From Brachionus manjavacas (Eukaryota; Rotifera; Eurotatoria; Ploima; Brachionidae), in assembly GCA_019054805.1 (NCBI GenBank), contig JAHQIY010000001.1, forward strand, positions 5,222,501-5,286,500: a DNA stretch of 64,000 nucleotides. Reading direction: 5' to 3'. The notes beneath the pieces are model-generated. The model did not search any database. It was not told the origin of the DNA and was given only the letters and a program-made list of their open reading frames with translations. Shown here piece by piece: positions 15,701 through 60,899 of this stretch. Position numbers and translations under genes: made by a program. Each line of letters opens with the position of its first letter. Within the stretch, counting starts at the first letter, position 1.

Positions 15701-18700
15701 AAAAAATTGATGTAACATAGTTTTTTGCACCATTTAGCACTTTCAGAACAAATTTTCAACAACTAGAAATGATTATTTAATGATTAAAAATTTGATTCAC
15801 AATTTTATCAAAATTCATTTGATAATTTAACTTTAAAAAAATTATATAAAGGGGTTTATTCCAGTGTTCATGTACAAAAGTTCTTACTCAAACTTACTAG
15901 CTTTCTGAAACCCTTTTCCCTGAAAATAGTTGAAGCCACAGATCAATTTGTTGTACCATCTCTTCTCCCTTCCTTCTTTAAAAAATTCCATTGCCTTCCA
16001 AGCGAAAGTTTAAAAAAAACTGTCTGATTAAATTTCATTCTTAGCCTTTTTTAGATTTGTTATGTCAATCGAAATACTTTTTTTTAAAAAAAAATTATTT
16101 GAGGTTATCATGGAATATTCATACAATAATTTCAAAAATAAATCTTTAGAAGTATGACAATTTATGAGTAAAATATTTGATTTGATACATCAAAAATTTT
16201 TATTTTTTAGATATTTAATGATAAGCTTTCTATATTTTCTTTTCAAGAATATAAATTCATTTGGACAAATTAAGATAGAGTTGTTTTTAAATCCTTGTAA
16301 ATAACTAAAATGTTTGAATTGTATTTTTTATCTTTTAACTTAAAGATTTTAAGTTGAAATGATAATAAATCTTCAAAACTTCAATGATTTATAATGGATT
16401 CCTCGAAATTTTAGTTTAAAAAAAATGCATTAAAATTAGTAAAAAAAATTAAATGCTTAATTTAGATAGCGCTTAGCTAATTACTTTTTAAATAATTAAT
16501 TTAAATGAAAAAAATCGAAGTCATGATTATTTTCATAAATAAAACTATGAGACAATAAAGTTTCTAAAAAATTTGACTAATTTTTTTTTAAGCACTGAAT
16601 AAAGTTTTTCATATTTTCGATCGAGATCATGATGGATCAATAACTATCGATGACGTACAAGCAGTAATGAATTCTTTTCAATTTTTGCAAAATGAACTTG
16701 AAATGCCGTCACTTGAACAAATACGGGTAGCATTTGAAAAATTTGATGACAATAGTAAGTAAAAATTGAATTTTATAAATTTTTTAGAGTCAATATAACA
16801 AAATAATCAAACCCAATATTATTTTTTTCATTTAACAATTTTATGGCATACCCCAGACAATAGAGAGTACTAAGCTAGCTTTGTAGTCTAAAAAGTGATT
16901 AGAACATAATAAAAAAAAACAAATCAACATAAGTTTAAATAAAAAAATATTACTAGTTAAACAAAAATAATGGCAAAAAAATTTTTTTATCTTTATCGAG
17001 CCTTTATTCCTTAATTTAAAACAGGAACCAAAATTAGCAATAAATTTTATATAAACGAAAACTAAAAAATTGAAAATGAATATCTCTTATAACTCTTACA
17101 CCATAAATAAGTTTGCTTTGAAATAATTTATCAAAAAAATAATAATTTATTTTTAGTTAGTTTTGGCAAATAAATTACAATGGTATTTTAAAAGTCAATA
17201 TTATATTCGTTTTTGAAAAAAATTTACAATTTAGTTTTAATTTATTTGATTAATTAATTTTGTAGGTTTTTCGTCAATTCCAAAAGATTCCTTTAAAAAA
17301 AAAACGACATCGTGACTCAATTTGACAATATTTTAATTGAGATTTATTTTAAAAGTCATTTATTTAAATTAATGCTGCTATTAAAAATCTGCAATTCTGA
17401 GGACTTTCTACAATTCATCTTTCTTATTCATTCAATCTGGTAATCTGTTAATATACATATATAAAAAGATAAGTTTTAAACAGCTTTCTCTTTTTTGATA
17501 TGATTAGAAAATAATGTAATTGAAGCATTAATTAAAAACAAATGAAATAGATTAAAATAAATAAAAAATTTGATTCACGCTAAAACATAAAATTTTTAAT
17601 TCAAAATTTTGACAAATGCATAAAAAAAGATAATCAAAATGAGAAAATCACAAAAATTAATTTTTCGAATCAGATACAAATCCTATTATTAATTACTAGA
17701 AAAAAATTTATTTTTATTAATTATTTTAACTTTTTGCTCTGTTCTTTTGTACCAAACTTGACAAAACATTAGTTTTTGCAGAAGTTAATTTTATTTAAAC
17801 ACTTTTATTTTATATATTGAACCTTGAGAACAAATTTTATAATGCTTTTGTTGATATGTTGTTTCTTTCTTCCATTAATTTCAAGATTTATTACAATTAA
17901 CTGAAATGGTCAGAAAAAAAGTTAAATTTATTGAGGTTAAATTTGATTCAAAAAAAATCTTTCTACTCCGATGATCGATGCAATTAAAAAACGCTATGAC
18001 TCAATATTTAATTTAATAAAATCTTAAAAAAAGATTTATTTTTAAAACAGTATAATGGATATTTTAAATTACAAATTATCTAATTATTTTTTAACTAAGA
18101 GAATGGAGCTATAGAGTTTGATGAGTTTATGAATATTCTTAAAAGCGCGGGCTCTAGTCAAAAAATGTCACCAAGTGGAACTAGTCAAGACTTTTCTTTT
18201 TCAAAGAATGGATCCAAGCTTTCACAACAAAACAGCCACGAATCAAATGTTGACTATGACATAAACAAATTTCGTAATGATTATTCTGATTTGGTCATGT
18301 CCAATATGAAGCTTATTTTCGAACAATTCGACAAAGATAATGATGGCAAAATAACCAAGCACGAGCTAACTTTTGTTATGCGCAATCTTTTCCCTGATGA
18401 AGAGATCACTGAAAAAGATATAAGTCACATGCTCAAAGCAGCCGATCTTGATAATAATGGTTTTATCGATTTTGAAGGTGAGTAAAATTAAATCAATTTT
18501 TTTTATGAATGAATCATCAAATTTCATATTTAATGACTAACCAATGCAGCTTTATTAGTTCCGAATTTTTCTTTTAAATTATTTTAAAAATTTCAAAATG
18601 AAAATTTTTACTTACGAAATTCAACTATTTCTAAATAAAAAACGTAAGTACAGTTTTAATCAGACAATTATCTTAATTACGTCTTAGGCATGACTATGTA

Positions 18701-19836
18701 TGTGAGAATTTTTTAAGTATAAAAAAAATAAACTAACACCAAGATTTAATTAAAAATGACTCGAATTTGTTTTGGAAGTAAAAAAAATAAAAATTCAAAA
18801 AAAAATTTTTTTTTTTCAATAATAATTTTTTCTTTTTTTTCAAGAATTTGCAAATATGTTCAATTTGTATAAAAAAAATCCTCCAAGTGAAACTTTAACC
18901 AGGTAAATAATTTATTTAGTTGCTATAAAATTTTTTTTTACTTTTTTTTTGTTTACTCACGACTCTTGGTCCTAGAGTTAAGTTAATATTGAAATAAAGA
19001 GTGAGAAAAATATTTAAAATTCAAAGAATTTTTACAATTAAGTTAAATTTTCATTTTTTTACAAAAGCAGTGAGTTTTGCTCGCCTAGTCCAAAGTTGAG
19101 ATCTAGTGTCAAAATCCGCAAAGACATAAGCCCTTCAAACAAGTCAATAAACAGCAAGTTAAATTCAAGAAATAGCAGTAAAGAACCTGGCAAACGAAGT
19201 CGTTCCCTGTCCCAGTCTAATTCAGCTAGTCAGTCACCAAATATAGCCAATTATCGCAAGTTTGTGCAGCTATTTACCACGTCTCAGCTGATGGGTAAAA
19301 TAAACTTTCAAGTTATTAATCAATTTACTTTGAATTTTTTCAAAAGATTTAAAGGCAGCGTTCACCATGTTCGATAAGAACGGAGATCACAAGATATCCG
19401 AAAGTGAGCTATTTCAGGTGATGAAATACCTGGGCTTAAAGACCACAGAAAAAGAGGTGAAGGCAATGATACAAGTAGTTGATAAGAACCAGAATGGTTA
19501 TGTCGATTATGATGAATTTATTCAAATGATGACTCAAACCAATATTAAGCCTCCTAATGCCGAAGATGAAGTCAAAAAAACTTTTGATATATTTGATATT
19601 GATGGCAATGGGTACATTTCAGCTGATGAAATAAAAAAGACCATGCAAAATATTGGTGAAAATTTGACTGATGACGAAGTCAAAGATATGATTAAGGCTG
19701 CAGATAAGAACGGCGATGGAAAAATCGATATCACAGGTATAATTTTCAATATTTGTTATAAAAAATTTTAAATGAAATTTTTTTAAATTTAGAATTCAGC
19801 GGGCTCCTGAGTGGAACAAATATTTTTCAATCCTAA
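9770..19836 (+). CDS. Eight-EF-hand calcium-binding protein with long disordered N-terminus
   Basis: Reconstructed from eight exons with matching phases: 9770-9794, 14109-14732, 16593-16754, 18100-18477, 18845-18902, 19068-19294, 19347-19736 and 19793-19836 (TAA), giving 635 residues. Residues about 10-216 (exon 2) are basic, Ser/Asn/Lys-rich and probably disordered. Then come EF loops DRDHDGSITIDD, DDNKNGAIEFDE, a Ser-rich linker, DKDNDGKITKHE, DLDNNGFIDFEE, a second Ser/Arg-rich linker, and a calmodulin-like C-terminal half with DKNGDHKISESE, DKNQNGYVDYDE, DIDGNGYISADE and DKNGDGKIDITE. Loop 5 has His where Gly is usual at position 6. The first tiny exon (MKIPADIK) is the weakest part: translation could instead start at the ATG at 14114, which follows an in-frame stop and a good acceptor. 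Exons 3-8 are well supported. Probably a calcium sensor; partner unknown. Confidence 0.75.
9795..14108. other. Long first intron, no other gene seen
   Basis: About 4.3 kb of A/T-rich sequence between the small first exon and the large second exon of the EF-hand gene. I find no nested ORF or RNA. A slightly GC-richer patch near 13360-13430 contains GGTTCAAATT, which resembles a tRNA B-box, but it does not fold as a tRNA T-arm. Confidence 0.45.
15374..15491. repeat. Short tandem array in intron 2 of the EF-hand gene
   Basis: Three imperfect copies built on AAAAAGTACAAAAAGTACAG, the first two followed by AACAGGrCCAAATAAAATAA. Period is about 50-60 bp and the last copy is cut short. Local slippage or unequal-exchange product. 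Confidence 0.7.
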
Positions 19837-20929
19837 AAACAAAGTCAAAATTATTGTGTATTTTAAATTCCATTAAAACTAATTTATCTATAGCAATTAG
19901 ATTATAAATTAATTACCTTATTTTAAAACTTTGTAAAATTTTATTTTTCTTCTAGAATTTTATTGAAGTTAATTATTTGACTTTAAAAATTTAAATAAAC
20001 TTGATTTATTGATTTTGAATTTTGCTAGTAATTGAGTGATTATTCCTAAAAGACGACTGATTAGCAAATTATAGTAAATTAAGCCATCATTTTCTTAGAG
20101 CTTATATCGTTAATTATAATTAGAGTGTATTTTTGTTAAAGTAGACATTTAAAAATCTTTGGAAAAATAGCAATTCTATTTTATTCTGAAGGAGCTCCAG
20201 TTCCGTACAGGAAACAAATAAATAAATTATTCTGATATATATGATAAATTACACCACAGTTAAAGATAAGTTCCAGAATGGAACTTTGAAAAAAAAAATG
20301 GCGTCAGTTTGCTCATTCAAAAATTTGATATTGCTAAATTTTATTATTAAAAAATTTTTTTTTGTTTTCAATTAAATTTTCATCTAATACTGTGATTCTT
20401 AATTTTTAAAAATTAAATTATTCGTTTTAATTCTAATTCCGCCAAAAAATTCTCTTAAACAAATAAAGAAAGTCTATTCAAAATTAAATCACAAATAAAT
20501 TGAACCTTTAAACAAAAAAAAAGTAATTTTTAGTATACTAAATCGTTAATAACTAGATTAAATTTCAGATCATCAAAATCCTAGCTACAATCACTTACCC
20601 AAGAATTTTATGATATAAGATGATTCTTTGGTTGTTGGAATATCACCATTTTTAAATTTTTTAAATAACTAATTTTATTCAAATTTTTTATTGATGCTCA
20701 AGTTCAAGTCAAAGTCTTTAATTTTACCTAACTCTTAGGATTTTTCTGCAACATGGTTCCAAATTCACTACAATAAAGACCTAATATTTTAAGTCAAAAC
20801 TTCATCTCATGTTGTTAATGGCGTGTTTTTGTGGGTTTAAATTATCTTTTTTAAATTATTTAATTTTTTTCGTTTCGTTTTGTTTTTGGTTTAAGATCAA
20901 GCTTTGTTAGTTTATTGAAGTGAATTTTT
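19837..20929. other. Intergenic region with one retrotransposon 3' tail
   Basis: No gene. At 20187-20230 the words GAAGGAGCTCCAGTTCCGTAC and AAACAAATAAATAAAT match the end of the non-LTR element at 59690-59731 (GAAGGAGCATTAGTTCGGTA then AAACAAATAAATAAAT), so this is an isolated 3' tail of that family on the plus strand. Confidence 0.6.
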
Positions 20930-22104: not shown

Positions 22105-25100
22105 TTACCAACAAGGATAACTTATATGATTTGGTATTTTACAATTTCTGTTTACAGGCCAGTCACATCTACAAATGTTCACATTGAAATGCAGGCCATG
22201 AGGACATTTAAACTCATGCGTTAATATCTTGGCATTATTAGACATTGGCTGACAGTAGTAAAACCTGGTACAATCGAGCGGATCAGGATAAGTTCCCTGT
22301 TGCTTGTTAGAACATGTAAAAGATTCACTCTTTGTAAATTCTTGTTGGAATTGTTGCGTTACCATTGTCGACAGCAAAATTGATTTTGTGGTCGGATTTA
22401 TTTTAGTTGGTTTAATGGAAATTATGGGTTTGGTAAAAATTTCATTTTCCTTAATTTTTTTGATGTCAGTCGCTTTGCAAAGGGTTTCTAAAAGTGGCAT
22501 AACACAAGGTGAGTCGATTTGTGGCCAGTCACAGGTGCAGTCACGCATGCTAAATATCAGACCATCCGGGCATCGAAATTCGTGCAATACTTTTTGAGCT
22601 TTACTTTCACATACATAAAATGAACTACAGTCGTTTTCTTCACGGTAAATGCCATTCACTTTGCCATCACATTTTTTTTTTGAACTAACTGTCATATTTT
22701 TTACCTTATTTTGATTTTGGACTGGTTTTTCTGGATGAAAATTTTGCACAGAATCTGAAATTAATTTTAAAGCTACTGGTGACATGTCAGCTTCATCTAA
22801 TATTTCCACAGATGTAAACGTATTTAAAACAGAAATAATCGGGCCTTGTTTTGGCCGATCAAGCAATGGAGAAAATTTTTTTGCCAAGCTAGTTTCATTA
22901 GTTTTGGATGTTTCAAACTTTGTTGTGGACATTTTTTCATTTTTTATCTTTTCAATTTTTTCGCTCTCTCTTTTGTAAGTGTTGGACTTTTTTTCAATCG
23001 GCCTTGGAGTTATTAAAATGTAGGAAATTTTTGGTGTGGCTTCATGTTTTTCTTCGCTTTTTTCATCGCTTGAATTTAAATTCAAAGATAGTGTCATTTT
23101 TTTAAGCATTTTAGATCTGGATTCATTCCAAATTGATATTTTAGTTTTGAATTTTGGCTCTGTAATATTATTCAACACTTCATTAGGTGGAGATATTTGG
23201 ATTGTGTCCTTTTTTGGTTTTCGAAGCCATGTGGCCAATAAACCTAATGACATCTTCAAAAACGGATATGAGCCCTTTTTACAAAATAATCCTCTAAAGT
23301 CATCCAAATCAATCGAATAAACACAAGCACCAGCAAGATTATTAGTTTTTACAAAATCAATCTTAACAAAAATAATTTTTTTTTTATTTTAAAAATAATC
23401 TTAAAATACTTTTTTTGCCAAGCTCTCTTTATTTTCGTATGATATCCATTCGGTTTGATGGTACATGAAAGGAACTTGAGCCAAAGAATGCCATTTTTCA
23501 GTCCATTTACCATGCTTTGTAGCCTCACACAGTTCATAATAAGACAGCATTCCGTTAGTCTTTGTGAAGCTTCCGCTAAAGCCATTTCCTGAGGTTAAAT
23601 CATTTATTCGATTTGCCATAGGATGTTGTAGAGTGAAGCTCCTGGAATAGGCAGCCAAGCCGAGTACAATTTTTTCCATTGAAAGACCTAATGATTTCAA
23701 ATAGCCCATTGTACCTTCTATATTCATGTATGTTTCTAATAAAATTTGTTCATTCATTTTTCCCAGTGGTGACATCAAGCCGGTTTTCTTATTCCACGGA
23801 CCGTAATAATCAAATGCTTCAACATTGACGTAATCGACTAAATTATTTATTTCAAGCAGATTGTATGACTGGATTCGTTCAGTTAATGGCGACATAACAA
23901 TACCAATTATATGTTTGTTAGAAAGTTTAAATTTCAAATCCTAAATTAAAATTTTTTTTAAATTTTTGGAAAAAAAGTTTTTTTGTAGAATTGTATTATT
24001 AAATTCAGCTAGATGTAAACTTAGAAAAATATTTAAAAAATTCGAATTATGGGTCTTAATAACAAATAAAAATATTTTTTTGAGTCTGGTAACGACGTCT
24101 AAAGGGGTTATGTGTTAATAGGGTGGCCAAATTTGAAAAACTGCTATATCTTCTTCATTTTAAGATATATTTTCAATTTTTATTTTTAGGCCTTAAAGGG
24201 TTAAACAGATTTAACCCAAAAAGTCAAAAAAATCACCCAATTACTCCAAATATTTTTCTATTTAATCCATTTAACCGTATTAGACTATAGAGATGCTAGT
24301 TTTTTAATAATTAAAGATACATTATCTCTTTCTCGCTCTCATAAAATTTTCTCTTATCAAAAAAAGTGTTTAAGACAAACTCTTGTTAATCATTGAATTG
24401 GACGATATAAATCAACTGATGTGGGGTGTTCAGCAGCTTTCATTAAACAAGAAGAAGAAAAAGTGATGTTGCACATGTTACTTTCTTCTTTAATTAAAAC
24501 TTCTTTTAAATTCACTCTTGTTTTATTTCGTTTTTTCTTTTCGTTTTTTAACTTTTTACATATTGTTATAGAATGAAATAAAATTGTAAAAGCTTAGTTT
24601 ATTTTGTACAAAATAATAATTTAACAATCAATTAAATAATCGCTACATAAATTTATTGAAAAATTAAAAAAATTATTCCTTAATGGGTTAAGTGGGTAAA
24701 AGAAGTTAAAATTTAGGGTAATAATATACAATATTAGGTGTAATCTGGTAAAACCACACACCATTACCACCGGGGGTAAAGGGGTGACTAAAAAAATTTT
24801 GGGAAATTGGGTGAATATTTTTGAAGTTTTTGAACAAAAATGGGTGCGAAATATTCATTAAAAAAAAGAGTACCCGGTTAGAATTGGTAAGTTTATAAAA
24901 TTTTAAATTTACGAAAAAAAATGTTATACTATTCAGTAATTCAATGAAATTTTTGTCTAAAACATTTTGGAAATGGCTTAAAAATTACAGCTAAAAAGAT
25001 GTTTATAATTTAGCTTATTATAATTTCTGGTTAAAACAAACGAAATGAGGTATAAAATGGACAAGTTAAATCCAAGTCATTTAAAAAAAGAAAAAAAATC

Positions 25101-27056
25101 AAAAATTTTTTTTAAAAAAAAGCTTTTAAAGTTTATGATTATTTTTTGATGCTCACTCAAATGATAAAATAAAGTTCAAACTATGAAATAATTTTTGTTT
25201 CTTAATAGAATTTATGCCGAGATACTTTTTGGATTTAACATACCATGTTAAATAAAATCATTTGAGCATCAAGAAATAATCATTAACTTTAAAAGCTTTT
25301 TTTTTTTTAATTTTTGATTTTTTTTTCTTTTTTTTAAATGACTTGGATTTAGCCTGTTCATTTTATAGTGATTTAAATAAGGCTTTATGGAAACGTTGTT
25401 CAAGGTCTAGTAAAAGTACTTACTCAAAATTTTTTTCATAATTCAAGTTTTTAAAAATTCAAATTAAATTTCACTTTAAAAATTTTTTGAATATTATTAA
25501 AAAGTTGAAAAGCCCTATTCCTTAGTATTCAAAAATGTAATAAATCATATTTTATCAAATTGCAATATTTCAAAAAAATCAATTCTATAAATATCCATTA
25601 AATAGAACTTAATTTGTTCTTTCTATCATGGACTTGAATTTTGAGGAGTATATTAAGTTCAAGAACGCACTCCTTAAACATGTTTGAATCTTAAACATGT
25701 GTGCACCTTTGATCATTGATTTCAATTTTTCGTTTTAATTTTTTTTATAATTTATTTAAACTTATTTTACTTTTACTAAATATTAGTTTAAATTTAAATT
25801 ATATTTTATTTTGTTATTTTTTGATTTTATTTTTAATCTAAAGGAATCTTAGCTCGGCACAGACAAACAAATTAATAAATAGAGCTTATTTATTTTATTC
25901 AACAATGGAATAAAATTATTTTTCTTTCGAAGAAATAAAATTTTGTTTTGAAATTTTTGTATAAAAATTCACAATGCCCTCGCAAGATTAATGATTCATA
26001 ATTTGTTTTGTTTTTTAGAACCTTTTTTAAATAAATTTATATTGTTGGTTACTTTATGTGAGCTAATGCGGTTTTTCCACACTCAATAAACTTACTTAAA
26101 ATTCACAAAATCTTTTTTAACTTTTTTGTTCTGTATTGATTTTTTTGTAAGAAAAATGAATCAGAAATAATTTCTATTAATATTTACTTTTAGTAGAAGA
26201 ATAAAATTTTCTTTGTCAGCTGGAATTCCTGACGGTCCTGCCGGCCATCGCCACTCTATTTCAGCGCCATCAAATCCATTATCTTGCAAATATTCAAGTA
26301 CATTTTGGCAAAAATTCAATCTTGTATCAAAGCTCTTGGATAATTTTGAATAAACACGGCCATTTTCATCAGTTATTCGAAGAATTAACTTTAAAGAGGG
26401 ATTTTGCTTTTTTAAAGCCCTCAGTTTATAATACAAATCCATTTCGTTATGTTGCACAGCTTGTATTTCGAATTCCTCTGAATCATAATAGTCATACTCG
26501 GCTTCCACTACCCTTACTGAAGCATAAATAACATAATTACAAAGAGTCGAATCTATAAAGTCAAAGCTAAATCTTCCACGGCCCGGCCGAAATTGGGACC
26601 AATTTGTAACAACGCACATTCGCTTGTAAGTGCTGCCGTCATCAGCATTGTCCTCTATTATGTATTCGCTGGACTCTGTTTCTTTTATTTGATCTTTTCT
26701 AGACTGGACTAAAGAAGAGAATTTTTTCTTGTTGATATTACTGTGATCGGACAAGTACTTGGCTAAAATTATACACTGAAAGTCTTCGATTGAAATAGCT
26801 GGTACACATTTTTGAAAATCTTCACTAAATACCGAATTATTGGAACATTCTCCAAAACTTTGTTGATCATCAATGCATGAATGATAAGCCTGACAATTTA
26901 AGGGATCTCGACATAGTTTTGAATTTCCTAAACAAAACAAATTAAATACATTTTAATTGAGTGAATTATTTTACTTTTTGATAATACAATGGGAAAAAGA
27001 ATCAAAATCAGAATTGCACTGATTTTTGTATAATTTTGTTTTTTTGATTTAATCAT
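22105..27056 (-). CDS. Chitinase-like protein (GH18 with CBM14 domains), catalytic site lost
   Basis: Four minus-strand exons join in phase: 27056-26975, 26927-26188, 23940-23410 and 23361-22105, giving 869 residues. Order: hydrophobic signal segment (ISAILILILFPIVLS), CBM14 chitin-binding domain (about 30-80), linker, GH18 barrel starting KRMCVVTNWSQFRPG, long Lys/Ser/Thr-rich linker, then two C-terminal CBM14 domains, each with the six-Cys pattern (GIYREENDCSSFYVC and GTYPDPLDCTRFYYC). The GH18 signature DGxDxDxE reads FDGAEIEWRWPAG: the proton-donor Glu is Arg (about residue 254) and both inner Asp are Glu. The SxGG strand, LAIGGW in the paralogue, reads LRITDENG. The rest of the barrel is kept (VEAFDYYGPW, GLAAYSRSF, YSIDLDDFRG). 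I infer a secreted, non-hydrolytic chitin-binding protein. Intron 2 is 2.2 kb and carries a foldback repeat; the other two are 47-48 bp. No frameshift suggests a pseudogene. Confidence 0.88.
25051..25367. repeat. Foldback element inside a chitinase-like intron
   Basis: Arms of about 110 bp face each other. The left reads TATAAAATGGACAAGTTAAA onward through AATCCAAGTCATTT to GATTATTTTTTGATGCTCA. The right is its reverse complement with few changes, ending TAGCCTGTTCATTTTATAG. The centre is about 90 bp. It looks like a palindromic MITE. I could not identify a clear target duplication. Confidence 0.8.
25840..25880 (+). mobile_element. Isolated 3' tail of a non-LTR element
   Basis: AAAGGAATCTTAGCTCGGCAC followed by AGACAAACAAATTAATAAAT matches the terminal words of the element ending near 59731. 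Only the tail and some upstream A/T-rich sequence are present. Confidence 0.55.
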
Positions 27057-32779: not shown

Positions 32780-35700
32780 ATGGCACAATTGTTTGAATTG
32801 TATATTATTTTCATATGGCTTATAATAAATGCTGCGGGCCAGCATAAATTCAACACATTTTATCTTCAAAAGCATCTCAGTAAATTTTCGATTTTTTTGT
32901 CATATTTAAAAATAATTTTATTCATAAAAAGAATCAGAATTTAAGAGTTTGATGTGTATAAATAACGCTGGGCCGTGCTACTACCAACTTTGCAATCCAA
33001 ATGGTCAATCATCTACGAGTAAAGTATTTAAGTGTGCTCGTGGTTTAATTTTTGACGAAAAATTTCAAAAATGTGTATGGTCATTGCCGTGGCATGCGTG
33101 TCAGTCAGATATTGAAACAACTACCACAAGTTTATCTACAGTTTCAACTAAACAAATAATCAATGAGCTCAAATTTCGTCCTGGAGATAAGAAGCTAGTT
33201 ACCTTGTTTGCTAAAGACTTGCCTGAAAAAATTAGAGAGTTTCGTTCCTCTAATGACAGTATAGATTTGATCAGTAGTGATCAGAGTGAGTATGCCTACA
33301 TAGTTGTTCCGATCAAGTTGAATAGAAATCAAAAGATGAGTGTACCAAAGATAAAATTGAAAAAAAAAAATCGAAAAAATAAAAATAAAAGACCTATGGT
33401 CAATTTAGAACAATTGTACAAATATAAAAAAATATGCTATGTTACTAATTGGAGTCAGTATAGACCAGGTGCGGCGCGATTTCTTCCTGAAAATGTAGAT
33501 CCATTTTTATGTACACACATAATTTTTGCGTTTGCTTATATTGATAAAAATACGCTAACAGTTCGAACAATTGAGGAGAATGACGAAGAAATGTACAAAA
33601 GAATTAATGATTTGAAATTCAAAAATCCCAAACTAAAGACTATGCTTGCTATAGGTGGTTGGAAGTATTTATGATTATATTTTTAAGATTTTCAAAATTA
33701 AAAAAAAATTAATAAAGTATGGCTAGCGATGAATTCAGTGCTATGGTTAAAAAAAGACATACAAGAAAAAATTTTATTATTCATGCCATCCGATTTCTTC
33801 GATTTTATAATTTTGATGGAATCGATTTGGGTAAGTAGTCTAAAATACTAAATATTTAGTAAATATATTCGAAAGATAAGAGAGATAAATTTTTATTTTA
33901 AATTTTTAAATTTTTTTTAGCTGAATAAATAATTAGTTTAATTATTAATTAAAATGTCAATAAAAAATATATATACTTTATTTAATTCTTTTTTAACTCA
34001 AGTTAAGTAGAATCTTTGAATTAAATATTTAATTCATGAAGCTTTAATAAAGATATAGATTTGACAAATTTAAAAATACCACTATTTTTTAGAAAATGCT
34101 AAAGGGTTAAGAAATAGACCAGAAATAGGAACAGATCTATAAAATTATTGAATTCTTTTGTGAAAATGATTAAGTTGTTTCTATAATTATTTTTTTCTTT
34201 TCATTACGATATTTTTAATTAACACTTTATCAAAAAATTTAATTTTTGATAATAAAAATTAATTTTTAAGACACTTAAATTTTAAGAGATACATTGATTT
34301 TTCAATTATGAATAATTAGGAAAATTAAAAAAAAACCGTATTTAAATTATAGATGATACTCTTAAATGGTCTAAATTTCCAATTATATGATAAAAAGAAT
34401 CTCTTTTAAAAAAATTCGAGCTCAAAATTCATTTCTTAATTTAAATGCTTAATAAAAATAAATTTTGAATTATATTTATTCTTTTAGATTGGGAGTTTCC
34501 AGGAGATAGAGGAGGTGATGCCACTGATAAGCCAAATTTTACCAAATTGATTAAAGAATTTCGGCAGGCAATTATTGATGAATCGATCGATCAAGACCAG
34601 GATCAACTTATTTTATCAATAGCAGTTGCAGCCGGTAAAAAGAGAATCGACCAGGGCTATGAAGTCAAAAAAATTTCTGGTGAATTAGACTTTGTAAATT
34701 TGATGGCGTAAGTTTTCTTTATTAAGAGCCTCGAACCATAAATCTTAGTTTTCAAATTTAAAAAGATTTAAAGAGAACAGAAAATTTATCAAGAAAATTA
34801 ATAATTAATTTTTATCTAGATTTAAGTTTAAAAGTAAAACTAAGATTTTAAAATTTTAACAACCTAAATAACTTTTTTTTTAATTTAAATATTTTTTTTT
34901 AGATTTGATTTTCATGGTAATTGGTAAGCAGAATAAGAAATACATCGAAGATAAATTTTTTTAATTCGTTTTTAAAAGGGATGATAAAACGGGCCTGAAT
35001 GCACCATTGTATAATCACGAAAATGCTACTGGAAGTGAAACACAATTCAATCAGGACTGGGCTGTGACATATTGGTAAGAAAATTTCAAATGGCATTTAT
35101 TTTATTTTAAGTGTTTAAATTTAAAGGATCAAAAATGGATGCCCTCCTCATAAACTTGTTTTAGGTTTTTATATTTTAAAATAAATTTTTGAACTATTTG
35201 CATTAATTTTGTTTAACAGGTCTTCCTGCTTACGGCCGCTCTTTTCATTTAAGAGACCAAAAAAAATCTGGACTTTTGTCTGAAACTATACAAAATGACG
35301 TTTTATCTGGAAGTTTCACACAAACTGCGGGATTTTTGAGCTTTTATGAAATCTGTGATCTAAAAAAATCCCAAAATTGGACCCAAGTGTGGCAATCACA
35401 AAGCAAAAGTCATTATCTTCATCAAAATTTTGACTGGATTAGTTATGACGATATCAAAAGCTTTCAATTAAGGGTAATCTTAAAATTAAGTTTACATTCT
35501 TCTATAAAAAACAATAATTTTTTAGACAGCGTATGTGGTGGCTAAAAAGTTGGGCGGAATATTCATCTGGTCAATAGACATGGATGACTTTAGTGGGAAG
35601 TTTTGTAATCAAGGTTCTTATCCGCTTGTAAAAAATAGTATGTCACTTTTAATGGACTATTTACCAGAGTGGTACTCGTCAAATGTCAATAAAAAAGAAA

Positions 35701-36131
35701 AAATGATGCTGAAAAATTCCAGAATAAAAACTTCAGTAAATGCTAATGTTTTTTATGTGTTGAAGGAAGAAGTTAATTTGCTTGATGAGTCTGATGCCGA
35801 TTTTGAGCTAGTTAAACAAAATCGAATCAGAAATGATCTCTTGCTGTTACTTAGTCATCAGCCAGAGAAGTTTTTTTCACTAAGTCTGAGCGAATCGTTC
35901 AATTGTGCCAAAAAAAAGAAAGGTCTTTATCGAGATCCATTAGACTGCTCGAAATACTACTTTTGTGATGAGGAAAACATAAGTGGAAAAGAGATTACCA
36001 AAGCGCTCAAGTGCCAAATGAATGGTTTTTTTGATTTGAAATCGTGTAGCTGCTTGAAAAGATCAGCATTTACCAAATGTGAAAATTTAATCGAAACCTA
36101 CTGTGATTTGAAAAAATTTAAAAAATTATGA
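32780..36131 (+). CDS. Chitinase, GH18 with intact active site and CBM14 domains
   Basis: Nine exons join in phase: 32780-32879, 32938-33664, 33718-33830, 34488-34707, 34903-34923, 34979-35074, 35127-35164, 35220-35473 and 35526-36131, for 724 residues. Signal peptide (MAQLFELYIIFIWLIINAAG), N-terminal CBM14-like Cys-rich domain, basic linker, GH18 barrel from KICYVTNWSQYRPG, and a C-terminal CBM14 (GLYRDPLDCSKYYFC) with extra cysteines. The barrel keeps the SxGG strand as MLAIGGWN, the catalytic motif FDGIDLDWEFPG (proton donor about E316), MAFDFHGNW, GLPAYGRSF and the final IFIWSIDMDDF. It should hydrolyse chitin beta-1,4 bonds outside the cell, for example in cuticle or feeding. Exon 5 is only 21 nt and codes FDFHGN plus part of W, lining the active site. 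AATAAA at 36181 is a likely polyadenylation signal. Paralogue of the minus-strand gene at 22-27 kb. Confidence 0.92.
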
Positions 36132-36380
36132 TTTGTACAGTGTAAAGTGTTTGCATTAAGCCATTTTAAGATTTTTATTCAATAAAATTTTACAAAATTT
36201 GATTTTTTGATCGCTTCTTCTTCTTTGGCTTCAAGAACACTGTTCAGAATAGTCTAGAAACAAAAAATAGTGTTTTTTTTATTGAATAGCTTTCAAAAAG
36301 ACTATAAATAAGAAATTTTTGCTTTCTAATTTTATTTAACTTAGACTCCACTTCAAATAAAGCTTTTTTAAATTTTCATC

Positions 36381-36968
36381 ATGTTGAAATTGGCAATTTT
36401 TTTGTTTGCTACTTTTTGTTATGTAAACAGTCAAAGTTTTCCAATTAATGCAGTAGCCATTATTGGTGGTGGGATAATGAATCCTGGAATGCGAGAACCA
36501 GTAATGGCTTTTGGCGATGCCAAATTTACACAGAGGTCACAAAGAGATCCAGTCGTTGTTCGTTTGAATGTAACTTTTATGCCAGCTAACAGTCCAATTG
36601 TAAACCAAGTCCGCGGTGTTCATATTCATACATTTGGCATATCTGGTGGCATGATTGATCCCTCACAAGTATGCAACACTGCTGGTCCTCACTGGAATCC
36701 AACCGGAGTTCTTCATGGTTCAGTTCTAAACCCCAACAGTCATGCCGGAGACTTAGGTAATGTTCAAACTATAAATGGAAGAATCATCACCACAATTACA
36801 AGCTCTAAATTGCAATTGTTTGGACCAAACTCAATTATTGGTCGATCAATCGTTTTACACGAAAATGTTGATGATCAAGGAATGGGAAATCATCAAGAGA
36901 GTCTGAAAAGCGGAAATAGTGGCAGTCGTATTGCATGTGGTACTATTGGAATCGTCAATTCTTTATAA
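36381..36968 (+). CDS. Secreted Cu/Zn superoxide dismutase
   Basis: Intronless, 195 residues. A signal peptide (about 1-17, hydrophobic LAIFLFATFCYV) marks it as extracellular. All Cu/Zn ligands of the family are in place: H81 and H83 in GVHIHTFG, H104 and H112 in AGPHWNPTGVLHG, H121 and D124 in HAGDLGNV, and H160 in IVLHENVDD. C98 and C186 can form the conserved disulphide, and R183 in GSRIACGTIGI is the substrate-guiding Arg. The N-terminal part before H81 is longer and less typical than in cytosolic SOD1. The enzyme converts superoxide to H2O2 and O2. A good acceptor, TTTATTTAACTTAG, ends 36 bases before the ATG. Confidence 0.95.
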   Translation: MLKLAIFLFATFCYVNSQSFPINAVAIIGGGIMNPGMREPVMAFGDAKFTQRSQRDPVVVRLNVTFMPANSPIVNQVRGVHIHTFGISGGMIDPSQVCNTAGPHWNPTGVLHGSVLNPNSHAGDLGNVQTINGRIITTITSSKLQLFGPNSIIGRSIVLHENVDDQGMGNHQESLKSGNSGSRIACGTIGIVNSL

Positions 36969-40753: not shown

Positions 40754-43303
40754 ATGGCAAATTTTGCAGCCCAGTCGCTGAGAGCAGCAGCTTCTTTGGT
40801 TACAGCATCCAAGCCAGAGGTTGAAAGCTTCACTGCCATGGAACAGTATACGAAAAATGCAGTCCTCAAACTGAAAAATAGTAATATGACCGAAAAAAAT
40901 GAGCTTAAAAAACTCAATGCCCAACTTCACAGCTATTTGGAAAATGTGCGAGCACTGGAGGCGCTCAATAAGCATTTGATTTCTGAAGTAGACAGAGCTA
41001 GAGGTTTTCATTTTCCAACTTTGGCCAACAAAAATTCTGCGGATCAAGAAGTTCAAAGAGTTCGGGCGAATCTCGAGAATGAATCTTACAATTGTGTAAA
41101 GCATCAGACAAGAATTCTTGAAAGTGAAGGGTTAATCAACGAGCTGAACCAGAGAATCAAATTTTTCCAAACTGAATCTGAAGCTCAGAGACAAAAAATT
41201 AGCGCTCTGCAAAACCAATTGGATGCATTTAAGGAACAGCGCGAAAGTCTAGTTCGTTCGGCTCTAGTTGCCGAAGATGACATCGCTCGCGAACAAGGCA
41301 AGCAGTTAAAAGCTGAAAAAGACTTGGATAATCTGAGATCATCGCTAAAAGATAACCGACTAAAGAATAAAGGCCTTGAATTTGAGATTCAGACTCTACT
41401 AGATGAATTGTCTTTCCGAAAAGCTGTTTATAATGAAGAAATAACTGAATTAAGATCAAAGCCAGAGGGAACTATACTAAACCCAATTGATTTGAGCAAT
41501 TTTTACAAAAATGAATTGATAACTGCAGTAAAACAGATAAGATCAGATTTTAAGCATTTAAGTGAGCAACAGATAAAAGACTACAAGGAGCACAAAGAAA
41601 ATGAATTGTCCGTGGTCGTTCAAGCGGCTGAGTATGAAAAAGTGATGTCTGAAAGAGCCAAGTCTAAGCTAGAGGCTTCAATAGATATAGAAAATTACAA
41701 TGTGTCCGAGTTGCATTCAAGTTTGAATTCATCAAAAAGTGAGATTACTTTGTTGAGTCAAAGAAACAATGACCTTGTTAAAAAATTGTCCAGCCTTGAA
41801 AATGGTAAATATGAATTCATTTTAAAATTTTGATCTCTATCATGTATATCCAATTGAGTTGTATAGATGAAGAAAACATCTATTTTTCTTTCGTTGACGA
41901 TATTGAAGTTCCTCTCTTGATACCTGTAAGGCGAGCAATTCATTATGGAAATTTGTTTGGATTATTCAAATTTTAAACTTTATGAATTTTAACTAAATTA
42001 AGAAGGAAAAAAATAGGTTGAAAATGGCTCATTAAAAATTTTTTTTCAGTGACTTTCTTTTGAAAGGAAAACAAAAATTGAAAAGCTAAATCTCTTATTT
42101 ATTTATTTAAAAAATTATTTAGGAAAATACCCAAAGCATTTCCGAACGAAAAAAATCAAAATAATGTGTACATAAAATTACTATGAAAGCCAAAGACATT
42201 TGTTGTTTGAAAACTAGCAAAAAATTCAAAAATTGTTAGTTATTTTACTTTTTCTATAGGATTTATAATTAAATTAATTAATTAAATTGATAAAAAAAAT
42301 TGATTTTCCGTTTTTAAAAAACACAAAAAATTAAAATGAAAATTTTAAAACTTAAATTATTTTTAATTAAATCTTTTTTTCTTTAGTAAAGTTAAAATAG
42401 TTGCTCCTATAATTGTTTTCCTCAATAATATACATGAATTTGAATTTATCTAAATTCAAATTATTTTGTAGTACTATCAAATTATTTTTAATTTTTAGGT
42501 CTAATGGATATTAAATTAAAGAATAAAGAAAAATTGGAGCGGCTACAAAACGAAATTGACAAGTTGGTCCTTGAAAATGACTCATATGCAAATGATATTG
42601 AATACTGGGACACTGTTACTAGAACAAAATTAGAATCTGAAATTCAAACTTATCGTAGTATATTAAATTGTCAGATAAAATTGATGCAAAATTCAAATCT
42701 ATCTTATGAAACATACCTGAATAAAACATCGACCACCACGACATCAAGCACAGAGTCCGAGTCAATCAACAGTAAGATTCAATTTGTTTAAAAATTAAAC
42801 TGACTAATTTTTTTTGTTAAGTTTTACGACAAGTTTTCAATTATTTTGATGCAGACAAGAGTGGAACAATCAATGTTGCTGAAATAGATAGAATCTTAGA
42901 AAGACTAAATGTAAAATTAAGCAGGGATGCTTATCAAAAATTGATGCGCGAAGTGGACAGGAACGGAAGTAGAGATCTTGATTTCAATGAGTTCTGTAGA
43001 CTTATGCTACCTGTATTTACCGGAAAATTTGATGATGACGACCTATGGTATGCGTTTAAAAAGTTCGATCTGGACGGGTCAGGATACATAACTGTGGGCG
43101 AGCTAAAGAAAATCCTGGCAAATATCGGACAACACTTTTCTGAATACGAAATTGAAAGTATGATTAGAAAAGTAGATTCGAATTTTGATGGGAAATTGAG
43201 TTATCAAGGTTTGTTCAGATTACAAAATTTCAACGAATTTTTTTCTAAAAATTTTCTTTTTTTAGAATTTTGCCGTTTGATGAAGTCTCCTGCTTTTAAA
43301 TAA
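40754..43303 (+). CDS. Intermediate-filament rod fused to a calmodulin-like EF-hand domain
   Basis: Four exons join in phase: 40754-41804, 42499-42771, 42822-43208 and 43266-43303 (TAA), all introns phase 1, giving 582 residues. Exons 1-2 encode an intermediate-filament rod. Coil 1A is LKKLNAQLHSYLENVRALEA (family LNDRLASYIEKVRxLE), followed by long heptad coiled coil, and the rod-end motif is DTVTRTKLESEIQTYRSIL (family LLDxKxxLDxEIxxYRKLLEG). After a Thr/Ser-rich joint (about 430-441), exons 3-4 encode four EF-hands with loops DADKSGTINVAE, DRNGSRDLDFNE, DLDGSGYITVGE and DSNFDGKLSYQE. All keep acidic positions 1 and 12; loop 2 lacks the position-6 Gly. The usual lamin-tail domain is absent. 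A 50-bp intron joins the halves and the EF part has no in-frame ATG near its start, so separate genes are unlikely. Without that splice, translation would stop at 42789-42791 and give a plain filament protein. Role inferred: calcium-responsive cytoskeletal filament. Confidence 0.85.
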
Positions 43304-48189: not shown

Positions 48190-49593
48190 CTATAGCACTC
48201 CGCATACCATTGATTCATCGCCGGTAAAAATGGCATCTGATTTGGAAACACCGCTTTTAGATTTAATCCAACATGTGCCACCATTGTAAGCAGTCCATGT
48301 AAAATGAGTGCAACCGGGTGTTTGAGCGCACCGTCCACCACATTCTTCTCCAGTTGATTTTTCATTTTTAAGATCATTATCTTTAAAATCACAAGCAAGA
48401 GCCCAATTTCCTTTCCAATCTATTTTAGCATCAGCCTCAGATCTAACAACTCCGCAAACCATTGACTTATCATATGTATAAAACGCATCTGATTTAGCAA
48501 TGCCATTTTTTGATTTCATCCAGCACATTCCGCCATTAAAAGTAGTCCAAGTAAAATGAGTACACGAGGGTGTTTGAGCGCACCGTCCACCACATTCTTC
48601 TCCTTTCAGAGACTCAAATTTAATATTTTCACCTCCAAAATCACAAGCATGAGCCCAGTTATCTTTCCATTCGATCAATTTTTTTTCTTGTTCAGTCAAC
48701 CATTTTCCATATTCGCTTGACTTATTTTTTATTAATAACTTTCTGTCTGGTACTTGTACATTAGAGTCATAATCACTTGGTTTGTGTATTGGAATCGATT
48801 CTTTTTTGGGAATATGAGTCCATTCATATTCTTTTACGTAGTATCCTTCATTATGGCCGCAGTAAATTCCATCAATATCGACAATAAATCGATTGTAGCG
48901 ACCCCAGCATCTAGCATCTGGACTAATCACATCAAATTCAACCTGAAAAAATCCAAATTCCTCGTTACCGTAGACTATTTTGGCTCTAACTCGATTTAGT
49001 ATTCTATTCACAAATACTCCTCTTCTTTCCTCAAAAGTGATCATCTCTCCATATTTCATTGTGAACCAATCGTCCTCTGTTCCATCTTCAAACAACTTTA
49101 TCTCCATGTCAAAACCAAGATTATTCCATACACCCATTTCTGGTCTATTTGACAATGAGCCGCCAAATAACTTTGCAACTTGAATTTAGAGTTAGTTTTA
49201 ATGTCTCTTAAAATGTCTGACATTGTAAATTTTAGAATGAAAAAATGGCGCAAGAAAAGCCTCTTTTAAATTGAAAAAATCTAAACAGGCTCTATAAATT
49301 CAGCCACTAGATCATATGCAAAAAAAATCTTAGGAATTTTCTCATATTAAATGCATGAAAATTAATTTTCAGAGTATTTCCATGACCAATTTTAGACCTT
49401 CCTCGAAAATTTTTTTAATATTTTCAAGAATTTATTGTTTTTTTCTGTTCTAAAACTCACAATGTCCAGAATCGATTGACATCTTACTGAAGCCTTTATA
49501 ACCTGATACAAAAAAACCTATTATATATGAATGAACAACATTTTGGATTATGGCTAAAATAAGGAAAAAATAAAGAATATTTTTCAACTTCAT
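48190..49593 (-). CDS. Secreted protein with two PAN/apple-like domains
   Basis: Two minus-strand exons: 49593-49461 and 49178-48190, phase 1, 373 residues. The first exon supplies a signal peptide (LKNILYFFLILAIIQNVVHS). Residues about 55-200 form a domain I do not recognise, rich in aromatic and acidic residues (DDWFTMKYGEMITFEERRG, CWGRYNRFIVDIDGIYCG). Two repeats follow at about 215-288 and 299-373, each with a W-x-C-DF start, EECGGRCAQTPxCTHFTWT and GGxCWxKSK, ending MVCGV. They are about three-quarters identical and resemble PAN_4-type domains that bind protein or carbohydrate. They end exactly at the stop. The upstream exon is inferred from phase, donor TT|GTGAGT and acceptor TTCAAG; the second exon alone lacks a signal peptide. 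Likely extracellular; partner unknown. Confidence 0.85.
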
Positions 49594-53657: not shown

Positions 53658-55403
53658 TTAAAAATTAATGTAAATTTTTTTATAATTCATAATCCATGAA
53701 ACTAATAGCCAAACACAAACCCAATAGATCGAATTCGTTAAGAGTAAAAAATGAGAATATCCAAAATTGAAATTTGGAAAATAATTTCCAAAAACTAAAT
53801 GACCAATATAGATGACTATTGAATTTCTTCCCATATATAAAAACGGAGTGCCTGAGTACCAGTCAAGCATGTCCACAAGAACAAACAATAAGCTTAAACT
53901 AAAAAGTCCTAAGGAAGCCATCACAAGGATAAAACTTAATGACCACAAATTCTTATTAATAGGAATCCATCCATCATTTATGCTAAACTTGCACAATATT
54001 AATCCAATAAGTCCAAAAATTATTCCATAAAAAATAAATTTTAAAACTATTTTTTTCTTTTGATCATGATGCAAAATAATGTGTCCAGTCATTACCCCTA
54101 AATAAGTTAGTACACAACTTGTTAAGCATCCAAGTAAGCCTTCAGGATCATAAGGAATTTGATTTTTGTAAATAAATTTACATGTTGGATCTTGATACAT
54201 GTGACTTGTGCCTAAAATTTTACGATCTACAAAGCCTGCAGCACCTCCTGTACAATTGAAGTGCGAGCCATTTTCATGTAAGCCACCAGGTCCAAGATAG
54301 CCTGATTGACAATTGTCCAATGGCAGCAGAAATGTGAAAAGTATCCATAAAAACAGAAAAAATGAGCTTACTAGCCATTGAATCCAGTAATGAAATATTT
54401 CAACAAATTTTCTCTGATTGTTCAGCAAAAAGTTATACTCATAATTATTAAGCTTTATATTTAATAGCTCTAATAACGCCATAAAAAAGTAGGATATGGA
54501 AAATCGTTGCAAAACTCCCATTATTCGTAATTCACTCAATTTTAAATCTGATGAGTTCGAAGTTACAAGACCAAAAAAAAACAGCAGCAAAGCTCTCCTG
54601 ACAATTTTAATGATGACATTTGATAATTGAAAATTATTCTGTCTAAAAATGCTTTTGAACGACAGAGGTATCGATACACCCATGAGAAATATGAATATGG
54701 GAAACACAGTATCTGCCAATTTAAGTCCATTCCAAACTGAATGATCCAGTACTGAATAACCTCCAGCTCCAAAATTAACAAAAATCATTATGCTAAGACA
54801 CATACCACGTAGAACATCAATACTTTTAATTCTGTTTGGTCTTGTACATTGTCTCAAGATACCTTCTTGGTCTTCATTTATTACTATTCGATCTGTGCCA
54901 GTTTCTGGTCCATCAATTAATCTATTTTTAAATTTTATAAAAATAAACTTTACTAAAAAATAGCACAAATATAAAAAAGATAGAATGCATGAGACAATAA
55001 TCAATGGCTGGTACTTATTTGGCTTTCCATTATCTACAATGATGAAATAGCAATTAAATTTAAAGTTGTAATAATCTATTCGGACTCTAATGACAGATTT
55101 TTCGTTTAATGAGACCACTTTTTGCGATAATGATTCACATATGAATTCATCAGTAGCAAGCGACTTGAAATAAAAATAATAACTTGGATAAAATGTGTCC
55201 AAAGAAATTGAGTTATTTAAGAAGTTATTAAATTGGCCGTAATTGACTGCTTTACATTTATCACATTCAATATTTCTTATCCTGACATTTATGCTTTTTG
55301 TTGAATTGGTTTCGAATAAAACTGTGGAATTTTGGTTGTTTTGAGCATTTATTTTGGTAAATAAAAAATTCAAGACAGCAACTATAATTAGCATAGAATT
55401 CAT
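53658..55403 (-). CDS. HGSNAT: Heparan-alpha-glucosaminide N-acetyltransferase-like membrane protein
   Basis: Single exon, 581 residues. N-terminal signal peptide (SMLIIVAVLNFLFTKINA), a lumenal domain of about 110 residues with cysteines, then a transmembrane segment (PLIIVSCILSFLYLCYFLV) and a multi-span region. Family motifs: IKSIDVLRGMCLSIMIFVNF, HSVWNGLKLADTVFPIFIFL with H221 at the place of the active-site His, and GPGGLHENGSHFNCTGGAAG. Near the end are DWYSGTPFLYMGRNSI and YIGH. In animals HGSNAT carries acetyl groups from cytosolic acetyl-CoA across the lysosomal membrane to heparan sulphate glucosamine. Length and order fit, so lysosomal heparan degradation is the likely role, though other acyltransferase-3/YeiB-like relatives exist. 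No intron despite the size. A TAG lies 17 bases before the ATG but has a purine-rich lead, so it is a poor acceptor. Confidence 0.92.
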   Translation of the reverse strand: MNSMLIIVAVLNFLFTKINAQNNQNSTVLFETNSTKSINVRIRNIECDKCKAVNYGQFNNFLNNSISLDTFYPSYYFYFKSLATDEFICESLSQKVVSLNEKSVIRVRIDYYNFKFNCYFIIVDNGKPNKYQPLIIVSCILSFLYLCYFLVKFIFIKFKNRLIDGPETGTDRIVINEDQEGILRQCTRPNRIKSIDVLRGMCLSIMIFVNFGAGGYSVLDHSVWNGLKLADTVFPIFIFLMGVSIPLSFKSIFRQNNFQLSNVIIKIVRRALLLFFFGLVTSNSSDLKLSELRIMGVLQRFSISYFFMALLELLNIKLNNYEYNFLLNNQRKFVEIFHYWIQWLVSSFFLFLWILFTFLLPLDNCQSGYLGPGGLHENGSHFNCTGGAAGFVDRKILGTSHMYQDPTCKFIYKNQIPYDPEGLLGCLTSCVLTYLGVMTGHIILHHDQKKKIVLKFIFYGIIFGLIGLILCKFSINDGWIPINKNLWSLSFILVMASLGLFSLSLLFVLVDMLDWYSGTPFLYMGRNSIVIYIGHLVFGNYFPNFNFGYSHFLLLTNSIYWVCVWLLVSWIMNYKKIYINF

Positions 55404-56320
55404 TTTTTTAATTGAATCTATTTTTTTTTTTCATTTGAAGTGATTAGATAAAGTTAGAGAATTAATTAAGATGAGATCAAAATTTCTAACAAGGTGTTCA
55501 CATTTAAAAGATTCAAAGGACTTTTAACTTAATTTAAGTTAATAATGCATTTTGAATTTTTAACTTGCAATGGATTAAAATTCAGTTTATCAATCATTTT
55601 GATTTAGATAATTTTTTTGAAGAAAAATTGAAATTTTGCAGGAAACTGCACGTCATTAAAAAGTAATTAATTCAACTGCGAAATTTAATTGAGGAGTTTT
55701 TGCAGAGCTTTATCTAATATTTAGCATGATTTTTGCATTAGTTAGCATTTTGCAGAGAGATTTGATCAAATACCATTCAAAAATTAAAAAAAAATACTTT
55801 TTTATCCTAAACTTCAAGATGCCATGAGGCGCGAGCATAAATAGTGTTTCATCAATGAAAAATAATATTTTTCATTTATTAAGTTTTTGACAATAATTTA
55901 TTGTGAGTTTCAATTTTACATCATTTTTATAAAATTTAAGTTTTTTAGACGAATTTTTGAAACTTTAATATTTTTTATAATATTGATCGTATTATTTAGA
56001 CCCTCAAAATTCTGTTTTATTTATTTTTTAAACCGTTTAAGAGTTTTTCCTGTGAAAAAAATTTTAGTTTTTTATCTATTTAGACTTAAACAAAGCGATT
56101 TTAGTTAACAAAAAAATATTAAACAAAAAAAGTTTGTGCTTTAATCCTTTTCGGATAATATTTGATAAACTGCTATATTTTTAAATTGCTTATGTAAGAA
56201 ATATTATTCAAGCAAAATCGTTTTTGAAAAGCTCATTCTCTTTTAATTTAGAATAATCTAAAAAAATCTCTTCTTAATTAATTAAATAATTAAACCTTGT
56301 TGTGCAAAGCCAAAAAAAGA
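55404..56320. other. Gene-free spacer
   Basis: No exon supported. TTTTGCAGA-type words at 55690-55760 recall those near 39200 and 44500. The open stretch at 55887-56108 is low-complexity Phe/Ile/Leu and probably chance. Confidence 0.45.
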
Positions 56321-59947: not shown

Positions 59948-60451
59948 TTATTGCAATTTCATTTTGCGGTTTAAAATTTTTTCTAAAGAACAGCTATTTG
60001 TTCTTTCCATTTGAATTAAGGCTCTACAAAAGTTTTGATGCATTCGAATCTTGGGTCGTGACCTGTGAACCAATTCATATGCAGTATTAAGATCAAATTT
60101 TAAATTTTAAATTAAATATGATATAACAATAAACGGTGAACGACTTAAACCAGCGCGGCAATGAATATAAACTCGATTTGAGGAATTTTGACGAGAACTT
60201 TCGATAAATTCACATATTGTTTGAATTTTTTCGATAATTTCTTCTTCAGTTGAACCATCTTTAAAGTGAAATATTCCATAGGTAAATTCTGATGGAAATT
60301 GACATTTGCCAGCTAAGACAATGATATGTGTAATTTTAAGAGATTTAAGTCCATCTAAATTATTTGCCGATTGATGACTACCGATAAATAAAAAGTTTTC
60401 TATTATTTCTGAATAATCCAGAGATTTAATGAAAATTTTAGATTTTGACAT
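59948..60451 (-). pseudogene. Dual-specificity phosphatase with an in-frame stop
   Basis: From the ATG at 60451 the minus strand encodes 114 residues of a small dual-specificity phosphatase: LDYSEIIENFLFIGSHQSAN, THIIVLAG, a general-acid candidate D65 in HFKDGS, and the P-loop IHCRAGLSRS with catalytic C98 and R104. A TAA at 60107-60109 follows SYLI. The same frame stays open to 59948 and still encodes the expected C-terminal helices (LNTAYELVHRSRPKIRMHQN then FCRALIQMER). No GT-AG pair removes the stop without losing the frame. So it is a fresh pseudogene, a truncated but perhaps folded enzyme, readthrough, or an assembly error. No introns seen. Confidence 0.75.
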
Positions 60452-60899
60452 ATTAAATTTGAAGAAACAAAAATTTGCGAAAAAAATTTTGAAAATTACG
60501 AAATCATAATTGTGAAATTGTTAGATTAAAAAAGTTTAGCTAAACGTTGAAAAGTTTTAAAATCGACTTTACAAAATTCTACTTTTTAGCTTTTTTTTTT
60601 TAAATTGTTTATTTATTATTTAAATAGATTTTGAGTAATGAAACTCCTTTAGTTATTGTTCGTATATTAAAAGAAAGTGAAACAGATATATAGTATTACA
60701 AAGTTGGGTTCACAATTTTTAAAAACATACAGTTCGATATGGTAATATTAAGAAAGGGAAACTTCTAGAAAATTGAAAGATTTGGCTGTTGCAAGTCACT
60801 CACGTGGAAATTCATGGACAAAAATTTATATGGGAGACTTTTTTTCACGATCTCTTGAGCTCTCAACGAAAACATCTTCAAAGTCCTTAATGAGTGATA
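60452..60899. other. Gene-free spacer
   Basis: No gene supported. The right end passes into the 3' part of the minus-strand retrotransposon. Confidence 0.4.

Follow-up and report, generated by a model that had tools for sequence, protein, structure and literature searches.

Analysis of a 64,000-nucleotide stretch of DNA (the window) identified a forward-strand gene at positions 40754-43303 with a predicted product of 582 aa (calculated mass ~67 kDa), in which a Ser/Thr linker connects an intermediate filament (IF) rod to a calmodulin-like domain with four EF-hands (Table 1). In translation, the gene comprises four exons, and its three introns (694, 50, and 57 bp) all have GT-AG ends and are in phase 1. 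The rod and EF parts can be assigned with good confidence to one fused gene, since the EF exon is startless, the introns fall at codons shared with paralogues, and the splice-site scores are compatible with the join. In the interpretation considered probable here, a single gene encodes a non-nuclear IF rod that gained a calmodulin-like tail by capture of 3' exons, and this tail would work as a tethered calcium sensor. Confidence in the function of the fusion protein is moderate.

Table 1. Predicted features of the fused gene, with positions given in the window.
Feature	Position	Strand	Basis
Exon 1: head (residues 1-46), coil 1A, coil 1B, L12, coil 2 start	40754..41804	+	
Coil 1A start motif LKKLNAQLHSYLENVRALEALNKHL, residues 51-75	40904..40978	+	phmmer alignment to vimentin, lamin A
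Intron 1, 694 bp, phase 1	41805..42498	+	GT-AG
Exon 2: coil 2 end and Ser/Thr linker	42499..42771	+	Extends PF00038 match
Rod-end motif IEYWDTVTRTKLESEIQTYRSILN, residues 384-407	42597..42668	+	Aligned to vimentin rod end
Linker, residues 409-441, containing TSTTTTSSTESES	42672..42770	+	Translation
Intron 2 (junction), 50 bp, phase 1	42772..42821	+	GT-AG; TAA at 42818 in EF frame
Exon 3: EF1, EF2, EF3, most of EF4	42822..43208	+	Pfam, PDB sequence, predicted fold
EF1 loop DADKSGTINVAE	42848..42883	+	EF-loop pattern match
EF2 loop DRNGSRDLDFNE	42956..42991	+	EF-loop pattern match; without Gly at position 6
EF3 loop DLDGSGYITVGE	43067..43102	+	EF-loop pattern match
EF4 loop DSNFDGKLSYQE, last codon split by intron 3	43175..43267	+	Translation
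Intron 3, 57 bp, phase 1, stopless, multiple of three	43209..43265	+	GT-AG
Exon 4: final EF helix EFCRLMKSPAFK and stop	43266..43303	+	Translation

The initial annotation proposed a filament rod with a coil 1A motif, and this was borne out: the Pfam Filament profile (PF00038) matched residues 47-408 of the product with E 1.6e-21 and 77.7 bits (gathering score 40), and LKKLNAQLHSYLENVRALEALNKHL aligned to both vimentin and lamin A. Exon 1 alone matched profile positions 2-247 (E 1.3e-18, 68.1 bits), and exon 2 alone matched no Pfam family at E 0.001. Together, exons 1 and 2 scored 78.8 bits with the match reaching profile position 308 of 313, whereas exon 1 followed by shuffled exon 2 scored 61.5-67.7 bits and ended at positions 253-278 in each of four shuffles. 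Since the real exon 2 extends the match, adding ~11 bits, and none of the four shuffled versions does so, exon 2 appears to belong to the rod and to carry its end. The rod end reads L-x-x-EI-x-x-YR-x-I-L in the vimentin alignment. Of the previously annotated rod-end motif, EI-x-x-YR is present and GEE, a part of the usual IF rod-end consensus, is absent. A home-made heptad score, a weak measure, exceeded shuffled sequence at residues 46-83, 127-179, and 357-388 but not over the whole rod.

Comparison of the rod with PDB sequences yielded vimentin and lamin A (three different sequences with E no higher than 0.001). In phmmer, query residues 41-290 aligned to lamin A residues 29-276 with almost no net gap. 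The vimentin match fell into two weak pieces, and query residues 86-137 (52 residues) stood against 8 of vimentin, a difference of 44. Lamins and protostome cytoplasmic IFs have in common 42 residues of coil 1B (PMC4829535), and the ~44-residue surplus over vimentin, taken with the nearly gapless lamin A match, fits this long coil 1B. No lamin tail domain (LTD) occurred among the 11 Pfam families matching the product at E 0.001, no NLS-like basic cluster was detected in the product by a simple pattern, and the C-terminus, KSPAFK, is not a CaaX end. A search of the product against NCBIfam returned only matches under the curated cut-offs. The coil 1A motif, the long coil 1B, the EI-x-x-YR rod end, and the lack of an NLS-like stretch or CaaX are features in common with protostome cytoplasmic IFs, which consist of a rod and an Ig-like lamin tail domain (PMC4448529). 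In contrast to these, the fused protein has a calmodulin-like domain instead of the lamin tail domain and a rod end without GEE. It shares a rod of lamin length with the nuclear lamins but differs from them in lacking an NLS-like stretch, CaaX, and LTD.

The EF part matched EF-hand_7 as two pairs (E 8.8e-33), and the best PDB sequence matches to residues 442-582 were calmodulins, the top chain being a calmodulin-calcineurin construct. Identity to calmodulin was 43 of 134 aligned residues, and identity to the product of a calmodulin-like gene elsewhere in the window (gene A, described below) was 43 of 126 residues. Three of the four loops fit an EF-loop pattern; EF4 misses it, by eye only through an unusual Phe at position 4. 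All four loops have Asp at position 1 and Glu at position 12. Furthermore, all nine Met positions in the aligned stretch of calmodulin are occupied by Leu, Met, or Phe in the EF part. Several of these positions line the target pocket of calmodulin, and the retention of hydrophobic residues at all nine makes target binding plausible. An AlphaFold2 model of exon 3, of modest confidence (mean pLDDT 72, pTM 0.44, 4 sequences, from the window only), had three EF-hands in full and the initial helix of a fourth; the final helix is missing from it because the input was the unspliced letters. A structure search with this model returned calmodulin and centrin among its closest structures, with TM scores of about 0.4-0.5 to the listed chains. 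The model shows the EF fold, though not the arrangement of the lobes. The EF-hand domain behind the Ser/Thr joint, as first described, is upheld by the EF-hand_7 score, the calmodulin matches, and the predicted fold.

Two further calmodulin-like loci in the window provided a reference for the intron positions of the fused gene. Gene A (7276-8643, +) has six exons, with all five introns in phase 1, and its calmodulin-like product is 145 aa long; the first exon is tiny (MDKKDIE and one base) and is followed by an intron of 724 bp. Gene B (about 14090-19838, +), which is probably one gene, contains two calmodulin-like modules with eight EF-hands and a Ser-rich linker between the modules; the assignment of an ORF at 14090-14740 as its N-terminal part is a guess. 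Phase-1 introns lie at the codons before FKEAF and FVAMM (EF4) in gene A and before LKAAF and FSGLL in module 2 of gene B. In module 1 of gene B, the EF4 intron is likewise in phase 1 and falls at the codon preceding FANMF. The codon preceding LNKVF has an acceptor whose phase is assumed, and the exon upstream of it was not found. In the fused gene, LRQVF is preceded by the codon of intron 2 and FCRLM by that of intron 3. Codon and phase of the junction intron are common to gene A and module 2 of gene B, and those of the EF4 intron to gene A and both modules of gene B. The simplest explanation of the junction intron is that it belongs to the introns native to the calmodulin family. Two exon-2 reverse primers printed for abalone calmodulin (PMC6171432) seem to stop after the first base of codon 11, which would fit the same intron in that gene; this is our own reading of the primers and not that of the paper.

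The 50-bp phase-1 intron said to connect the rod and EF parts is present with GT-AG ends. The earlier gene structure was correct in this respect and had overlooked intron 3, which completes EF4. Because intron 3 is stopless and a multiple of three in length, the frame stays open even when it is kept. Only its removal supplies EF4 with the position-12 Glu and the helix behind the loop. In the unspliced form, EF4 is without this Glu and 19 residues are added, so retention would keep the frame and yield an isoform in which the fourth EF-hand is broken. GC content in exon 1 was 0.379, compared with 0.221 upstream and 0.205 in intron 1, and the intron 1 donor and acceptor ranked in the top 0.7% and top 9% of window sites, respectively, with a small matrix. 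Rfam (at gathering score) and tRNA scans gave no matches. An assembly chimera or a decaying gene is an alternative reading of the locus, and exon 2, with GC nearly flat across the three codon positions (0.322/0.300/0.322), lacks the pattern seen in exon 1 (0.486/0.297/0.351) and in the EF part (0.447/0.291/0.326). This alternative is nevertheless very improbable, given that all four exons have open frames that connect without a shift, that GC varies among codon positions both in exon 1 and in the EF part, and that a join at the paralogues' intron position is not expected of a chimera.

Evidence at the junction itself also favors a single gene. Upstream of exon 3, the EF frame continues for one codon before TAA at 42818; no in-frame start codon precedes EF1 in the EF exon, and the first downstream in-frame ATG lies past EF1. 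Scored with matrices built from nine paralogue donors and ten paralogue acceptors, the junction donor ranked within the highest 14% of window sites and the acceptor within the highest 10%, which is moderate only. At 4.3, the donor score is within the span obtained for the nine paralogue donors when each was left out in turn (2.1-8.9), and the 50-bp length resembles that of the six short introns (48-56 bp) among nine paralogue introns. Around the junction, 18 of 96 donor-acceptor pairs keep the whole frame, and the pair 42772/42821 ranked first, sharing this rank with another whose use would remove the rod end. In tblastn searches of the window, no second rod was found, and the EF part matched at 8.1-8.5 and 19.3-19.7 kb, with the module near 18.1-18.5 kb unlisted. 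Scans of viral contigs for relatives of the fused protein gave no match, and a scan of prokaryotic genome contigs gave only one EF-hand match, of 52 residues at 39%, in the EF1-EF2 region. The proposal of one gene with a rod and four EF-hands is supported by the domain scores, the missing EF start, and the phase-1 introns at shared codons.

Retention of intron 2 would yield a rod-only protein ending SKIQFV before a clean stop, as would be found if two neighboring genes were present, the first a rod gene with this end and the second a calmodulin-like gene with a distant short first exon, for example in intron 1. Gene A illustrates how a private start exon of this kind could easily be missed, given its own tiny first exon and long first intron. 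The separate EF start exon raised as a possibility in the initial annotation was sought accordingly: none adjoins the EF exon, and one candidate with a fair donor occurs in intron 1 (42183-42234), a count equal to chance, since 300 random 694-bp stretches of the window contained a mean of 1.03 and 48% of them held at least one. Between the exon-2 read-through stop (end 42791) and the EF exon there are 30 bp, which is tight for both a terminator and a promoter; of two types of polyadenylation hexamer tested, one ATTAAA (42794) occurs in this interval. Two separate genes are thus considered unlikely. Only slightly less unlikely is one locus with its halves made mainly apart, the rod by retention of intron 2 and the EF domain from an internal start or by spliced-leader (SL) trans-splicing. 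In-frame ATGs in exon 2 (42504 and 42684) would permit EF-only products, and more than half of transcripts are trans-spliced in bdelloid rotifers (PMC1925144). However, a leader spliced to 42822 would give no in-frame ATG before EF1 unless it carried the AUG itself, and the same source reports no trans-spliced leader in a small EST library of the monogonont Brachionus plicatilis (PMC1925144). Rod-only and EF-only products are possible alongside the fusion.

The fusion itself probably arose by exon shuffling, in which calmodulin-family 3' exons, starting at the phase-1 intron before the first EF-hand, would have been placed behind the exons of a rod. Across the junction the sequence runs ...STESESIN[I]LRQVF, and most of the calmodulin matches listed by phmmer reach back to query residue 437 or 438, 4-5 residues before the intron. 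Because these matches extend past the intron, the join may lie inside exon 2, with the intron arriving together with the EF exons; the stretch provides a hint of this and is too short for proof. In gene B, nearby, a module of this type seems likewise to have been attached in duplicate to a different protein. Exon shuffling can be tested in relatives through the phase-1 introns that flank the EF modules of the window at common codons.

For the fusion protein, we infer co-transcription of the two parts, filament assembly, calcium binding, and an effect of calcium. The rod would dimerize as a coiled coil and presumably build filaments, with the calmodulin-like domain standing where a lamin-type Ig tail would be. 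A flexible Ser/Thr linker could let the EF domain swing free, such that each filament subunit would display a tethered calcium sensor. A rise in calcium would then cause the EF domain to open and grip helical targets, candidates for which are membrane proteins, junction proteins, or neighboring rods, and binding of these may alter the bundling or anchorage of the filaments. The closest functional parallel is alpha-actinin, in which calcium acting through the calmodulin-like end controls actin cross-linking. With Asp and Glu at loop positions 1 and 12 in 4/4 loops, calcium sensing by the filament itself is plausible. IF regulation generally proceeds through phosphorylation and through partner proteins, and four calcium-binding loops built into a rod protein would give the IF network a direct calcium input. 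The rotifer epidermis has a dense intracytoplasmic lamina (PMC13403294), which would be one possible site of the fusion protein if the organism is a rotifer.

The fusion may be a calcium-switched IF whose built-in sensor alters assembly, bundling, or anchorage without a separate regulator, the module consisting of phase-1-intron-bounded calmodulin-family 3' exons moved behind the rod; this stronger proposal is a possibility that falls short of probable. Alternatively, the fusion is expressed and the EF domain serves only as a structural or binding tail or as a calcium buffer, with no part in regulating assembly. IFs with switchless binding tails provide a precedent for this alternative, and calcium-dependent assembly cannot be read from sequence; on the other hand, the Asp and Glu at loop positions 1 and 12 in every loop and the hydrophobic residues at all nine calmodulin Met positions speak against it. 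Such a role is a substantial possibility, but a doubtful one, and a tethered calcium sensor is still the reading preferred here.

The combination of an IF rod with EF-hands was compared with published IFs and with other EF-hand proteins of the cytoskeleton. The main text of PMC4448529, a survey in which 305 genomes were searched and 892 lamins and cytoplasmic IFs were treated, contains none of the terms EF-hand, EF hand, or calcium. Likewise, the main text of PMC10125929, on lophotrochozoan lamins including those of rotifers, mentions neither EF-hand nor calcium, and EF-hand is not mentioned in the main text of PMC4829535. No protein with an IF rod and EF-hands was recognised among the matches listed for the open-access literature, as far as the available texts go. 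The initial claim of novelty holds to this extent, its reach being the literature and not predicted proteins; 'undescribed' in the open-access literature is a safer term for the rod and four-EF-hand architecture than 'unique', eukaryotic sequence databases being outside the scope of the statement. Novel domain pairs can be prediction errors (PMC4967905).

Unusual IFs have been described, including, in Adineta vaga, one lamin that lacks the Ig domain and, as a reported odd case, a PDZ-carrying lamin in the salmon louse (PMC4448529). These resemble the fused protein in that rods can drop their tails or acquire a foreign domain, although the foreign domain of the fused protein, in contrast to that of the PDZ lamin, is an EF-hand domain and C-terminal. 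The fusion would add an EF-hand tail to such odd IF fusions in print (PMC4448529). Calmodulin-like proteins, genes A and B included, likewise have four EF-hands, and two phase-1 introns are at the same codons in gene A and module 2 of gene B; the EF part of the fused gene differs in being tethered behind a filament rod and in lacking a start of its own. Spectraplakins are rod-like cytoskeletal proteins ending in EF-hands, and filaggrin and trichohyalin are S100-fused proteins that bind IFs. The latter two also join EF-hands to filament-associated sequence but have no IF rod, and their EF-hands are N-terminal. Alpha-actinin, which has a calmodulin-like end (PMC5775757), and the spectraplakins are comparable as rod-like proteins with terminal EF-hands, and are unlike the fused protein in being composed of spectrin repeats and an actin-binding domain and not of a self-assembling IF rod.

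The window contains several additional genes and gene pieces. Chitinase-type pieces occur at 22105-26952 (-), with CBM14 and GH18 Pfam matches, and at 32928-36131 (+), with a GH18 match at 32928-33674; by eye, these represent two genes. A Cu/Zn superoxide dismutase is encoded by a single ORF at 36372-36968 (+; Sod_Cu E 5.6e-32), one ORF at 48190-49185 (-) has two PAN domains, and a dual-specificity phosphatase piece lies at 60107-60520 (-; DSPc E 6.7e-15). The ORF at 53658-55430 (-), with no Pfam match at E 0.001, resembles by eye a heparan-alpha-glucosaminide N-acetyltransferase-like membrane protein. Also by eye, an ORF at 1739-2413 (+) resembles tRNA 2'-phosphotransferase, and ORFs at 45.4-47.0, 57.7-59.1, and 61.3-61.8 kb resemble pieces of LINE-type reverse transcriptase/endonuclease.
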